From contig NZ_FMXT01000001.1 in assembly GCF_900104335.1 (NCBI RefSeq), positions 372,001 through 436,000 of the forward strand: DNA of 64,000 nt, in the 5' to 3' direction. Source of the DNA: Pseudobutyrivibrio sp. YE44. GTDB taxonomy: Bacteria > Bacillota > Clostridia > Lachnospirales > Lachnospiraceae. Below the pieces are notes generated by a model. That model was given only the letters and a program-made list of their open reading frames with translations, searched no databases and was not told the DNA's origin. The number at the start of each line of letters is the position of its first letter. Positions within the stretch are counted from its first letter, which is position 1. Of the stretch, positions 1,286 to 42,610 are shown one piece after another. A program made the translations under genes and the position numbers.

Positions 1286-1422
1286 AGAACAGCTTTGAAG
1301 ACTTGGCAAGCGCGAGCAGGAAGGCTCCATGCCAAGCTAGGAGGGAGCCGCGAAGCGGAAAGTTGCCTAGCTTGAGTATGGAAGGTGGCCTGCGGGAGCA
1401 TGTAAAACTTGGAAGCTGTTCT
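1286..1422 (+). repeat. Long nested-stem element, divergent member (E)
   Basis: The outer arms AGAACAGCTT (1286-1295) and AAGCTGTTCT (1413-1422) pair perfectly over 10 bp. Inside, CAAGCTAGG (1333-1341) pairs with CCTAGCTTG (1366-1374), and CCGC-GAA-GCGG forms the apex (1348-1358). The GCGAAGCG core and a GTAA before the right outer arm resemble the elements at 3130, 24880 and 28789, but the arms are longer. Membership is likely rather than certain. It fills most of the 282-base hisF to FliD-like gap. No clear promoter was identified downstream of it. Confidence 0.6.
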
Positions 1423-3129: not shown

Positions 3130-3214
3130 GCTTGTAGCTAACAATCTCTTATATTTCTTTAGCGAAGCGTGCTAGCTGAGCGGAGAAATCATAAGGATTG
3201 TTAGTGTAACAAGC
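3130..3214 (+). repeat. Nested-stem element, copy A (upstream of AICAR transformylase)
   Basis: Outer stem GCTTGT (3130-3135) with ACAAGC (3209-3214). Second stem CTAACAATC (3138-3146) with GATTGTTAG (3196-3204), extended by CTTAT/ATAAG and TTTCT/AGAAA (3154-3158/3184-3188). The apex is AGC-GTGCTA-GCT (3166-3177), flanked by AGCGAA and TGAGCGGAG. GTAAC precedes the right outer arm. CGGAATGGAGAGG follows it and carries the ribosome binding site of the next gene. Copies at 24880 and 28789 have the same plan with different stems. Confidence 0.8.
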
Positions 3215-6820: not shown

Positions 6821-9475
6821 ATGGCAAAAATTAAAGTACATGAGTTAGCCAAAGAGCTTTCAAAGGAGAGCAAGGACATTATCGCTTTCCTTGAGGCAAG
6901 TGGTATAGAGGCAAAACCTCAGAGTGGTGTAGAGGATGATATGGCAGCTAAAATTAGATCAAAGTTTGGCGCTAAATCAGAGGCTAAGGCTGAGGTTAAG
7001 GCTGAAAAGAAAGATAAGGAAGGCAATCCTGTTAAGAAGCCACGTCCAGTGGACAAGGATGGCAATCCAATCAAGAAAAAGAAAAACGTTTTCGTTGTAA
7101 CTAGAGATAGAGACGACAGAAGAAGACGTGGTTCTGATTCTTCAAGAAACGAAAATAGAGACAACAATGGTCAGAAGAAGGCTCAGGCTCCAGCACAGCC
7201 AAGAGGCCCAATCAGACCACGTTCTTTTGCAGATGGTGTTCGTCCATCTCAGAGAGCTAGTGCTCAGTCTCAGGATACAGAGTTTGTTTCTAAGAAGCAG
7301 GTAAAAGAGGAGGCTCAGGAGCGTCCAGCTAAGAAGCAGGATAGAAACGAGCGTCCAGAGCGTAATAACGATAGAAGAGACAACAGACAGGATAGAAATA
7401 ACCGTTCTGACAGACCAGCACGTGGTGATAAGCAAGCTGGAAATCGTCCAGAGAGAGGCGACAGACCAAATCGTGGTGAGAGACCTGAAGGCGGTAGAGG
7501 TGACGGAAGAAACAATCGTCCTTCACAGGCTGCTTCAGCTCCAGATATGTCTCCATCTTCTAATGCTAAGGGCGGACGTCGTGACGACAAGAAAAAGAAG
7601 AATAACGATAGAGATAACAACTTAGGCGGCAAGAAGCAGGAGCGCTTTGTAAACCTTGAAAAGAACGGTGGAAAGAAGAAAAAGAACAACACACCTAAGA
7701 CTCCAGAGCGTGATATGAACGAAGTTCTTACTATCACAATTCCAGATAGAATCACTATCAAGGATCTTGCTGATAAGATGAAGGTTCAGGCATCAGCAGT
7801 TGTTAAGACTCTTTTCATGAAGGGTACAATGGTTACAGTAAACCAGGAAGTTGACTTTGAGAAGGCAGAGGAAATTGCTCTTGAGTTCAACTGTATCTGT
7901 GAGGAAGAGGAAAAGGTTGATGTTATCGCAGAGCTTCTTAAGGAAGAGGAAGAGGATACAACAAACTTCCCATCACGCCCACCTGTTGTCTGCGTAATGG
8001 GTCACGTTGACCACGGTAAAACATCACTTCTTGATGCAATCCGTGATACAAAGGTTACAGACCGTGAGGCTGGTGGTATTACACAGCACATCGGTGCTTA
8101 TACAGTTTCAATTAATGGTCAGGACATCACATTCCTTGATACTCCTGGTCATGAGGCCTTCACAGCTATGCGTATGCGTGGTGCCAACTCAACAGATATC
8201 GCAATCCTTGTAGTTGCTGCTGATGACGGTGTTATGCCTCAGACAGTTGAAGCTATTAACCATGCAAAGGCTGCAGGTATCGAAATCATTGTTGCAATCA
8301 ACAAGATTGATAAGCCTAATGCAAATATTGATAGAGTTAAGCAGGAACTTTCTGAGTATCAGCTCATCCCAGAGGATTGGGGCGGAAGCACAGTATTCTG
8401 TCCAGTTTCAGCTCACACAAAGGAGGGTATCGACAACCTTCTTGAGATGATTCTTCTTACAGCAGAGGTTCTTGAGCTTAGAGCAAATCCAAACCGTAAG
8501 GCTCGTGGTCTTGTTATCGAGGCTCAGCTTGATAAGGGACGTGGTGCTGTTGCTACAGTTCTCGTTCAGAAGGGTACACTTCACGTTGGTGATCCTGTTG
8601 CCTGCGGTAGCTGCTACGGTAAGGTTCGTGCTATGCTTGACGACACAGGAGCTCGTGTAAAGAGCGCTGGTCCTTCAGTTCCTGTAGAGATTCTTGGTCT
8701 TTCTGAGGTTCCAAATGCAGGTGAGGTTCTTATGTCCTTTGATTCAGAGAAGGAAGCTCATGCATTTGCAGATACCTTTGTTGCAGAGCACAAGAACAAG
8801 CTTGTTGAGCAGACTAAGTCTAAGATGTCTCTTGATGCACTCTTTAGTGAGATTGAATCAGGAAACCTTAAGGAACTTGATATCATCGTTAAGGCTGACG
8901 TTCAGGGTTCTGTTGAGGCTGTTAAGCAGTCACTTGAAAAGCTTTCAAACGAGGAAGTTGTTGTTAAGACTATCCACGGTGGCGTTGGTACAATCAATGA
9001 GTCAGACGTTGTTCTTGCATCAGCTTCAAATGCAATCATCATCGGATTTAACGTACGTATCGATCCACAGGCTAAGGCTACAGCTGATAGAGAAGGCGTA
9101 GATCTTCGTCTCTACAAGGTTATTTACGATGCAATCAATGATGTTGAGTCTGCTATGAAGGGTATGCTTGATCCTATCTTCGAAGAGAAGGTTATCGGTC
9201 ATGCAGAAGTTCGTCAGATTTTCAAGGCTTCTGGAATTGGAAACATCGCTGGTTCTTATGTAACAGATGGTTACTTCCAGAGAGATTGTATGGTACGTGT
9301 TACTCGTGAAGGTGAGCTTATCCACGAAGGCAAGCTTGGTTCTCTTAAGAGATTCAAGGATGATGTTAAGGAGGTTAAGTCAAACTTCGAGTGTGGTCTT
9401 GTTATTGAAGACTTCAATGATGTTCAGGAGATGGATATCATCGAGGCCTACATTATGGTTGAGGTACCTAGATAA
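6821..9475 (+). CDS. infB: Translation initiation factor IF-2
   Basis: IF-2 is a GTPase that brings initiator fMet-tRNA to the 30S subunit. The 884-residue protein starts with an IF2_N domain ([16 protein letters not shown]). A disordered Lys/Arg/Asn/Asp-rich linker (about 60-300) and a second IF2_N domain follow. The G domain has GHVDHGKT at 394-401, then DTPGHEAF and NKID. Domains II-IV continue to the C-terminus ([14 protein letters not shown]). The linker is repetitive ([16 protein letters not shown]-like). It overlaps rbfA by one base. Confidence 0.98.
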
Positions 9476-24879: not shown

Positions 24880-24968
24880 GGGGACTCTAATTAACAATCT
24901 AATATATCTCTGAATGAAACGTGTTAGTTGAAGGAAGAGATGTATTGATTGTTAATGTAAGGGTCCCC
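24880..24968 (+). repeat. Nested-stem element, copy B (upstream of icd)
   Basis: Outer stem GGGGAC (24880-24885) with GTCCCC (24963-24968). Second stem ATTAACAATC (24890-24899) with GATTGTTAAT (24947-24956). Third stem AATATATCTCT (24901-24911) with AGAGATGTATT (24936-24946). The apex is AAC-GTGTTA-GTT (24918-24929). ATGTAAG precedes the right outer arm. CGGATTATAGGAG follows and holds the icd ribosome binding site. Confidence 0.82.
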
Positions 24969-28743: not shown

Positions 28744-28775
28744 AGTCTCATACGTAAGGCGTATGGGACTTTTTT
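28744..28775 (+). terminator. Terminator immediately after the scpA promoter -10
   Basis: AGTCTCATACG (28744-28754) pairs with CGTATGGGACT (28760-28770, one T-G pair) and is followed by TTTTT. It ends transcripts coming from the 796-residue gene. Because a start site about seven bases after the -10 removes most of the left arm, new scpA transcripts should not be stopped. Confidence 0.82.
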
Positions 28776-28788
28776 ATGCCTTAAATGA

Positions 28789-28873
28789 GCTCGTAGGCAT
28801 CAAGCTCATAGAATTCTTAAGGTGGACGTGTTAGTCCACCGGAGAATTACTATGGCTTGTGGACGTAACGAGC
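28789..28873 (+). repeat. Nested-stem element, copy C (upstream of scpA)
   Basis: Outer stem GCTCGT (28789-28794) with ACGAGC (28868-28873). Second stem AAGC-T-CATAG (28802-28811) with CTATGGCTT (28850-28858). Third stem AATTCT/AGAATT (28812-28817/28843-28848). The apex is a perfect 7-bp hairpin, GGTGGAC-GTGTTA-GTCCACC (28821-28840). The GTGTTA loop equals that of copy B. GCGGATTATTGGGAGAG follows and includes the scpA ribosome binding site. Confidence 0.83.
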
Positions 28874-40661: not shown

Positions 40662-41435
40662 ATGGATAATTACGAAGCTTTTAAGAAGGAAGTTCACGAC
40701 CTTACCAAAATTGACCTTAGTTCCTATAAGGAAAAACAGATGCGTCGTCGTATCGATTCCCTTGTTACAAAGCATAAATGCAAGGAATATCATGAGTATG
40801 TTATGCTTTTGAAGAAGGACAAAGAGGTTTTTGATGAATTCGTAAACTTCCTAACAATAAATGTTTCCGAATTTTATCGTAATCCAGAACAATGGGAATT
40901 AATGAGCAAGGAGTTTATTCCAGAGCTTATGGCTAAGTCAGGCCAGCAGCTGAAAATCTGGAGTGCAGCTTGTTCAACTGGTGATGAGCCTTATTCTCTT
41001 GTTATGTGCTTATCTAACCATATTCCTTTGAACAAGATTAAGATTTACGCCACTGATTTGGACAAGCAGGTTATCGCTACAGCAAAGGTTGGACTTTACA
41101 GTGCAAAATCTATTGCCAATGTTCCTGCTGATCTTAAGAAAAAGTTCTTTACACAGGTGGGAAACTCTTACCAGATTAGTGATGAAGTTAAAAGATGTGT
41201 AGAGTTTAAGGAGCATAACCTTCTTAGAGATTCATATCCTACAAACTACGACATGATTGTTTGCCGAAATGTTTTAATTTACTTTACAGATGAGGCGAAG
41301 AATGAGGTTTACTCTAAGTTTAATAAAGCTTTGAGAATGGGTGGTATTCTCTTTATAGGTTCTACAGAGCAAGTAATAGACTACAAAGAATTGGGATATA
41401 AGAGAAGATATTCATTCTATTATGAGAAAGTATAG
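40662..41435 (+). CDS. cheR: Chemotaxis protein methyltransferase CheR
   Basis: CheR methylates glutamates of chemoreceptors. The 257-residue protein has the N-terminal helical CheR domain (about 1-70) and the SAM-binding part with IWSAACSTGDEPYSL near 104. The IYATDLDKQVI and DMIVCRNVLIYF segments follow. It stands alone between two terminators, with no other che gene nearby. A TATAAT at 40615-40620 may be its -10. Confidence 0.94.
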   Translation: MDNYEAFKKEVHDLTKIDLSSYKEKQMRRRIDSLVTKHKCKEYHEYVMLLKKDKEVFDEFVNFLTINVSEFYRNPEQWELMSKEFIPELMAKSGQQLKIWSAACSTGDEPYSLVMCLSNHIPLNKIKIYATDLDKQVIATAKVGLYSAKSIANVPADLKKKFFTQVGNSYQISDEVKRCVEFKEHNLLRDSYPTNYDMIVCRNVLIYFTDEAKNEVYSKFNKALRMGGILFIGSTEQVIDYKELGYKRRYSFYYEKV

Positions 41436-41452: not shown

Positions 41453-41549
41453 AAGAGTCTTGGTCACGGCTACAAGCCATGGGTAACTACGCTCAACGAG
41501 AAATGTTTCGCTTAAGTTACCCATGAGCTTGAGGCCTACCAAGACTCTT
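41453..41549 (-). repeat. Nested-stem element, copy D (minus orientation, convergent gap)
   Basis: Outer stem AAGAGTCTTGGT (41453-41464) with ACCAAGACTCTT (41538-41549), 12 perfect pairs followed by a T run on the plus strand. Second stem CATGGGTAAC (41478-41487) with GTTACCCATG (41516-41525), plus AAGC/GCTT. On the minus strand it shares TAGGC-x-TCAAGCTCAT and ATGGCTTGT with copy C, and AGCGAA...TGAGCG with copy A. Here it also serves as a terminator between cheR and the exonuclease gene. Confidence 0.78.
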
Positions 41550-41551
41550 TT

Positions 41552-42610
41552 TTAGTGTTTCAACATATATCTAGTAATCTTAATTATAATGTCTTCTTTT
41601 ATATCCGATACGCTGATATACGCTTCCTTGGATTCGTAGGAAGCTTTGAAGGTGCGAGTGCTTCCAACATCTATCCCCTTTGGGAGGGATACGTAGCTTC
41701 CTTCAGCTACAACCTTACATTCTTTGCGGGTGGCAGGACGACGGTTTGATTTATCCATGCTTTCCCCTAAGGAACGAGGAATGATTATATCTTCACTAAT
41801 AAGGTAATAATAGTTTTTATAATCTGGAAGATAAGTTTCCAAGGTTCCCTTGAATATATTTAAAGTAACGTATATGCGATTATTCTTTATGATATACATT
41901 CCGTATTCGCGAATTTTGTTTATCGAAGATGGAAGAGCAATATCAGTTTCTATTTCAAATCTAAGTTTATCTTCATCCAACTCCATATTTACAAATCGTA
42001 AATCCGAAGTAAGAATATCGCTGTAGGAAAGAATATCAGCAATATAGATCATTCCTTTTACATCTTCGTAATTATGAAGAAGAATAAGCTTCTTTGATTC
42101 TTGATCATTAGTAAGAGAATAGTGCTGATAAACCGGTATTAATTGTCCTCCATCATATTCGTCTTTACGATTTAATCCTAAAAAGCCTTCGATAGTCTTT
42201 TGTTTATAGTTTGGTAAATCCAAAAGACATTTTGCTTTTGTGGTGGTAAGATACATATCCAGATGCTTCTTTTGCTTTATTACAGTGTTTAGCTTGTATT
42301 TCTTGCAACGCTCTACAATAAAGGATTCATCAAAGCGAGTAGAGTTAAAGCCTAATAATTTATCGTAATTACGTATTACATTCTCGAATTCATTAAGAAT
42401 TTCTATTTCCTCTGATTCGTTGTTTGCTAAAAGCTGAGTTACAGTTACCATATTTCCCAATCGAATTGCATATCCTATTAGGTATATGAAGGATTTTCTT
42501 GGTGAAAGACCGGTACATTCAATATCGAAGAAAATAGTATTGTTGTCAAAGTATTTGTCTAATGCGTAGCTTATATTATCAATCTCGTAGGTATTATTTA
42601 TTATTTCCAT
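41552..42610 (-). CDS. YprB-like ribonuclease H-like exonuclease domain protein
   Basis: A 352-residue protein. Residues ~1-190 form a DEDD-type 3'-5' exonuclease fold (RNase_H_2/YprB family): FFDIECTGLSP near 28, LLGFNSTRFDESF near 87 and LHNYEDVKGM near 185 hold the acidic metal ligands. The C-terminal ~150 residues are beta-rich (ITLNIFKGTL-like segment, KEAYISVSDI) and unassigned. Nucleic acid target is unknown. It is transcribed alone, opposite to cheR and rnfC. Confidence 0.8.
   Translation of the reverse strand: MEIINNTYEIDNISYALDKYFDNNTIFFDIECTGLSPRKSFIYLIGYAIRLGNMVTVTQLLANNESEEIEILNEFENVIRNYDKLLGFNSTRFDESFIVERCKKYKLNTVIKQKKHLDMYLTTTKAKCLLDLPNYKQKTIEGFLGLNRKDEYDGGQLIPVYQHYSLTNDQESKKLILLHNYEDVKGMIYIADILSYSDILTSDLRFVNMELDEDKLRFEIETDIALPSSINKIREYGMYIIKNNRIYVTLNIFKGTLETYLPDYKNYYYLISEDIIIPRSLGESMDKSNRRPATRKECKVVAEGSYVSLPKGIDVGSTRTFKASYESKEAYISVSDIKEDIIIKITRYMLKH

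Follow-up and report, generated by a model that had tools for sequence, protein, structure and literature searches.

Bacterial interspersed repeats are usually recognized by sequence, and copies of Correia/NEMIS and of ERIC are similar in sequence. REP/BIME repeats are palindromic and intergenic, often lie behind stop codons, and fold on the sense strand with a mismatch. Integron attC sites combine a conserved structure with divergent sequence and extrahelical bases.

The transcripts of the intergenic Correia/NEMIS and ERIC repeats fold and are cleaved by RNase III or RNase E (PMC3049150). The pneumococcal repeats BOX, RUP, and SPRITE are small, form a stable fold in the transcript, and favor convergent gaps (PMC3049150); they insert into one another, and SPRITE is terminator-like (reviewed in PMC10969869).

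Here, we describe an element of approximately 85 nt from Pseudobutyrivibrio sp. YE44 that has a fixed hairpin plan and stem letters that differ almost freely between copies. Four copies lie in a 64,000-nucleotide stretch of DNA (the window).

Results

Four copies in the window share one hairpin plan

The initial annotation had reported four copies with common loops and shared strings, all of which were found as described:

Copy A: 3130..3214, plus strand, hairpin element, covariance model score 96.1 bits
Copy B: 24880..24968, plus strand, hairpin element, covariance model score 86.7 bits
Copy C: 28789..28873, plus strand, hairpin element, covariance model score 91.5 bits
Copy D: 41453..41549, minus strand, hairpin element, covariance model score 92.1 bits

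From the outside inward, the common plan consists of an outer stem, a 5′ A opposite a 3′ GUA bulge, a 10-bp helix, a U bulge, an 11-bp helix that may carry a 3′ bulge, an asymmetric loop, a 2-bp step, a GA/GA internal loop (base-paired in copy C), a 3-bp apical stem, and a loop of 6 or 7 nt. Segment lengths are almost fixed among the four copies, and the outer stem ranges from 6 to 12 bp. The outer stems had all been called perfectly paired; the pairing is indeed there, but the stem given as GGGGAC for copy B is 9 bp long and contains one G-U pair. The apical loops were read correctly where they had been given (GTGYTA in three copies), with the correction that the copy D loop, AUUUCUC, belongs to a second class, one often seen at other places in this genome.

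Predicted RNA folds of copies A to D had energies of −38.9, −44.8, −43.9, and −56.2 kcal/mol, with z-scores of −6.3, −8.7, −5.9, and −9.1 compared with dinucleotide shuffles. Within these four copies only, 95.3% of cells pair (72.9 ± 2.9 when shuffled), and both sides have changed in 20 of 32 pairs (8.2 ± 2.1 when shuffled). When the window was scanned with the model unfiltered, the four copies scored 86.7–96.1 bits, their reverse complements 12.9–22.3 bits, and the next match 12.3 bits.

Copy A sits after an IMP cyclohydrolase-like ORF (end 3125) and before an AICAR formyltransferase gene (likely start 3230); it is operon-internal and sense, with TTA/GGA flanks and a Shine-Dalgarno sequence directly 3′. 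Copy B has leuS (end 24866) on one side and an NADP-isocitrate dehydrogenase (IDH) gene (start 24988) on the other, and its flanks are TGA/GGA, as are those of copy C. The latter is located 5′ of scpA (start 28896) and 3′ of a separate terminator-like hairpin. This hairpin (window 28748–28777; CTCATACGTAAGGCGTATGGG and then a T tract) separates copy C from the upstream gene; therefore, copy C would either head the scpA transcript or be reached by readthrough. The neighbors of copy D are convergent, a cheR-like gene (40662–41435, plus strand) and an ORF (41552–42610, minus strand), and its 12-bp outer stem, with an A-rich upstream side and a T-rich downstream side, is terminator-like.

The element is genus specific among the family genomes sampled

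A covariance model built from the four window copies (R1) found 103 copies in the YE44 genome, the weakest at E = 2.5e-8, where covariance-model E-values are to be read as rough. A generic scan for TGA-stem-GGA hairpins was rejected as a copy finder because it was too noisy. As the initial annotation had anticipated, copies also occur throughout the genus: 24 of the 25 Pseudobutyrivibrio genomes searched, YE44 included, hold between 1 and more than 100. P. xylanivorans MA3014 has at least 138, detected with the successor of model R1 and all on chromosome contig C1. Its contigs C2 and C3, which are 172 kb together by published replicon sizes (PMC7523725), hold none, fewer than an even spread predicts.

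A second covariance model, built from 110 matches (R2), found no copies in 333 other genera (397 family genomes sampled, 334 genera); few candidates were scored per genome, and rare or degenerate copies could escape this search. Among the family genomes sampled, the element is specific to Pseudobutyrivibrio. In the most divergent members of the genus, both of them incomplete assemblies, one copy (G007) and none (G020) were found, and these low counts suggest that the family expanded within Pseudobutyrivibrio.

Mean identity among the copies inside a genome is 67%; in G000, the most similar copies reach 93%. No named family had seemed to fit, and Rfam 15 gave no match above the gathering threshold, the best being a microRNA precursor model (MIR9746; E 0.55, 26.9 bits, gathering threshold 79). 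No exact match to one consensus pattern was found in viral contigs, which is weak evidence given the single pattern.

Stems vary and pairing is kept on one strand

Stems that change with pairing kept were the basis of the original proposal, and covariation proved to be far above tree-preserving nulls. In 106 distinct copies, 94.0% of cells are paired, 29 of 32 pairs have double-sided changes, and both sides have changed in 688 cells (173 ± 17 when shuffled). The covariation score was 0.577, compared with 0.157 ± 0.006 when shuffled and at most 0.077 when slid. An R-scape-like test in our own implementation (G-test with APC, with a null that re-deals substitutions on the inferred tree) placed 18 of 32 pairs, plus one off-structure neighbor, at E < 0.05. 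The alignment had been fitted to the structure; therefore, the test was repeated on a sequence-only MAFFT alignment. Sixteen column pairs were significant in this alignment, every one on the hairpin diagonal, and two of them join flank columns just outside the stem.

The initial annotation had allowed for either a folded RNA or a cruciform. A double-stranded DNA cruciform predicts G-U and A-C mismatches in similar numbers, whereas the stems contain 100 G-U and 14 A-C on one strand (approximately 7:1), which points to RNA or single-stranded DNA of the sense strand. The cruciform is disfavored by this asymmetry, and the sense single strand appears to be what selection keeps. Unpaired bases are nearly invariant (A7 in 106/106 copies, U21 in 103/105, G121 in 104/106, U122 in 105/106). 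Our guess is that a dedicated binding protein or enzyme would read these bases, namely the A after the outer stem, the U bulge, the GUA bulge, and the GA/GA loop.

Flank class and stem type match transcription context

Neighbors were assigned to 102 copies by simple longest-ORF gene calls: 56 copies are sense between co-directional genes, another 22 are sense where genes converge, 20 are antisense, and divergent gaps hold the other 4. An overlap of more than 60 nt with an ORF was seen for only 4 copies, and the adjoining genes are housekeeping genes of unrelated function. Where the neighbors are co-directional, sense copies outnumber antisense copies (binomial p = 4e-5), and copies are scarcer in divergent than in convergent gaps (p = 8e-4).

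Three flank classes were distinguished. Copies with TGA/GGA or ATA/GAG flanks have a short stem and are mostly operon-internal, often 15–30 nt before a start codon. Extended-stem copies are preceded by an A tract and, in half of cases, followed by a T tract, the other half having no clear U tract; they are richer in T after the stem (p ~2e-5) and in A before it (p ~4e-5). Terminal or antisense placement was seen for 19 of 30 extended-stem copies and 8 of 40 short-flank copies (p = 4e-4).

Copies are gained, lost, nested, and conserved at orthologous sites

Across the genus, the purH, IDH, trmL, and yitT sites hold full copies, remodeled copies, copies with decayed arms, other repeats, or tight junctions. 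The copy A site in other species is empty or has other copies, and the copy B (IDH) site is occupied, remodeled, or empty across 29 genomes. The IDH site is filled in other species by a second dispersed repeat (AAGCGCGAGCAGG ... CCTGCGGGAGCA) with TGAGC/GCGGACTA flanks. One copy of this repeat is at window 1290–1418, and ten copies were counted in 1.05 Mb of the YE44 genome. Merging the IDH-site repeat with the present element was rejected because it folds barely more stably than shuffled sequences do (z −1.35). Further intergenic repeats, among them a CCTTCCCC...GATGAGG type, are found at or inside element sites in the L224, L228, L320, and L332 upstream regions, which suggests that element sites are insertion hot spots.

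Genomes G012 and G019 are 94% identical and hold 70 and 35 copies, respectively. Five G012 copy sites are tight gene junctions in G019; at other sites, one copy is without its 3′ arm, one is replaced by a different element, and five are shared. At one site, the G012 element is followed by TTTTTG, and G019 has an ordinary intrinsic terminator hairpin there. The five shared copies differ at 6 of 420 positions (1.4%), compared with 106 of 603 (17.6%) in their flanks, a figure that counts some alignment-edge mismatches.

The trmL site has the same flanks in seven lineages (G012 C1 2609k: 5′ TTTAGAAAGAGTAA, 3′ GTAGGTTTTA) with differing stem sequences, and in G000 a second copy, bearing TGA/GGA flanks of its own, splits the old copy there. 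In total, four copies are enclosed by intact arms of an outer copy, whereas 12 of 20,000 random places are so enclosed. An apparent three-level nest, in which one full copy is enclosed by arms of two older ones, is located at L185 ~7001–7087 (G000:C21:15229). Loss by slippage of one arm against the other is visible: G019 retains a mini-hairpin, and G190 has lost the sequence between two GTAAC repeats. Losses could account for most of the presence/absence differences, and nesting is the one strong argument for gain.

Search for mobilizing machinery

Y1 transposase genes (PF01797) were found in only 10 of 29 genomes and in none of the copy-rich genomes G012, G013, G016, and G018; several genomes with 58–96 copies are without one. 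Membership in REP/RAYT was rejected because Y1 genes do not track copy number and no REPtron was seen. Integron attC membership was also rejected: no IntI integrase (TIGR02249) exceeded the curated cut-off in any of 29 genomes, there are no cassette arrays, and the copies are dispersed between housekeeping genes. The genes between neighboring copies are housekeeping genes, with no transposase among them, and no active source copy was found.

As in a MITE, the element is short, non-coding, multi-copy, and built of inverted repeats; no target-site duplication was found, the empty sites being too untidy to display one. We read 54 stretches (approximately 1.05 Mb, about one third of the YE44 genome), in which the exact empty sequence of a candidate fixed target, TGAGCGGA[CT]T, occurred only twice, which lends no support to a fixed target of that sequence.

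Discussion

The original suggestion of a mobile repeat or a structured RNA can be answered with apparently both. Gains, losses, and nesting indicate mobility; pairing, strand asymmetry, and orthologous conservation indicate a selected single-strand fold. Copies in related genomes and supported covariation, the two findings on which the initial annotation had staked its reading, were both obtained. We think that the element is probably a mobile interspersed repeat, BOX/SPRITE-like, that is retained as an mRNA-level hairpin. It shares a conserved fold, intergenic location, nesting, and convergent bias with that group, which denotes a class and not homology. Judged from sequence, support extends to dispersal, fold, covariation, sense asymmetry, siting at gene 3′ ends, site gain and loss, nesting, and the slow divergence of shared copies.

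Nesting and turnover suggest that copies would be spread by transposition or recombination machinery acting in trans. Insertion would occur behind a stop codon, and many copies may then have been retained because the RNA hairpin was useful. Their position suggests that copies are transcribed within mRNAs. Inside operons, the hairpin could form an intercistronic structure before the next Shine-Dalgarno sequence and contribute to mRNA processing, stability, or insulation; with a lengthened outer stem and A and T tracts, it could become a (bidirectional) transcription terminator. We propose these uses from where the copies sit, their flank class, the conservation of orthologous copies, and the terminator swap.

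A purely parasitic element, whose transposition enzyme reads the single-strand fold (cf. REP/RAYT and attC) and which has no use to the host, would also be gained, lost, and nested. Its correlated TGA/GGA and ATA/GAG flanks would resemble element ends or target preferences, and scarcity in divergent (promoter) gaps would fit tolerated insertion. We consider this unlikely, since orthologous copies have diverged by 1.4% and their flanks by 17.6%, flank and stem type match transcription context, and no matching transposase was found, Y1 genes being present in 10 of 29 genomes and in none of the copy-rich G012, G013, G016, and G018. Pairing might instead be kept by mutation, through template switching during replication, in which one arm of a near-palindrome serves to correct the second. 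Such correction is documented for RNA stems (PMC8794818), and arm slippage occurs here in G019 and G190. However, it should erase bulges and internal loops, whereas the bulges and the GUA/GA motifs hardly vary, and it should act on both strands alike, whereas G-U exceeds A-C 7:1. Template switching is disfavored on these grounds, and we regard it as very improbable.

That the copies are merely look-alike intrinsic terminators seems just as improbable. An extended-stem subset at gene ends does have A and T tracts, and one copy is exchanged for a classical terminator at an orthologous site, but co-directional genes border more than half of the copies, many copies are 15–30 nt before a start codon without a U tract, and ordinary terminators have no common loops, bulges, or 85-nt plan. 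The slimmest prospect is a discrete trans-acting small RNA or riboswitch-like family; conserved loops and covariation would suit it, but the neighbors are housekeeping genes of unrelated function and copies occur on both strands relative to genes, 20 of them antisense.

Beyond the mobile, mRNA-retained repeat that we prefer, a bolder version is possible, if rather doubtful. The family would be a new kind of RNA mark defined by structure, with approximately 20–140 hairpins per genome across the genus, whose invariant bulges are read by a dedicated RNA-binding or RNA-cleaving protein. These hairpins would partition operon mRNAs and spread as a mobile element, with copies fixed by shape instead of sequence.

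The family is distinctive in that shape is fixed at 67% mean within-genome identity and long-established copies stay conserved in place. It lends itself to studying how mRNAs come to include a mobile repeat in their anatomy and which machinery or protein reads the bulge pattern. With the covariance model and 24 copy-bearing genomes, cultured rumen strains, P. xylanivorans MA3014 among them, allow the question to be tested directly.

Compared with known systems, the element resembles integron attC sites in its conserved structure, divergent sequence, and extrahelical bases, but it lies outside cassette arrays and in genomes with no integron integrase over the curated cut-off. Like REP/BIME, it is palindromic and intergenic, has a sense-strand fold with mismatch, and often follows stop codons; unlike them, it is longer (85 nt), Y1 genes do not track its copy number, and there is no REPtron. 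Correia/NEMIS and ERIC are also intergenic repeats with a folded transcript (here predicted), but their copies are alike in sequence. BOX, RUP, and SPRITE are similar in being small, non-coding, many-copy, intergenic, stably folded, nested, and biased toward convergent gaps. They belong to another genus, and no homology is claimed; in the Pseudobutyrivibrio element, by contrast, stems vary almost freely with pairing kept, and flank and stem type are tied to operon-internal or terminal position.
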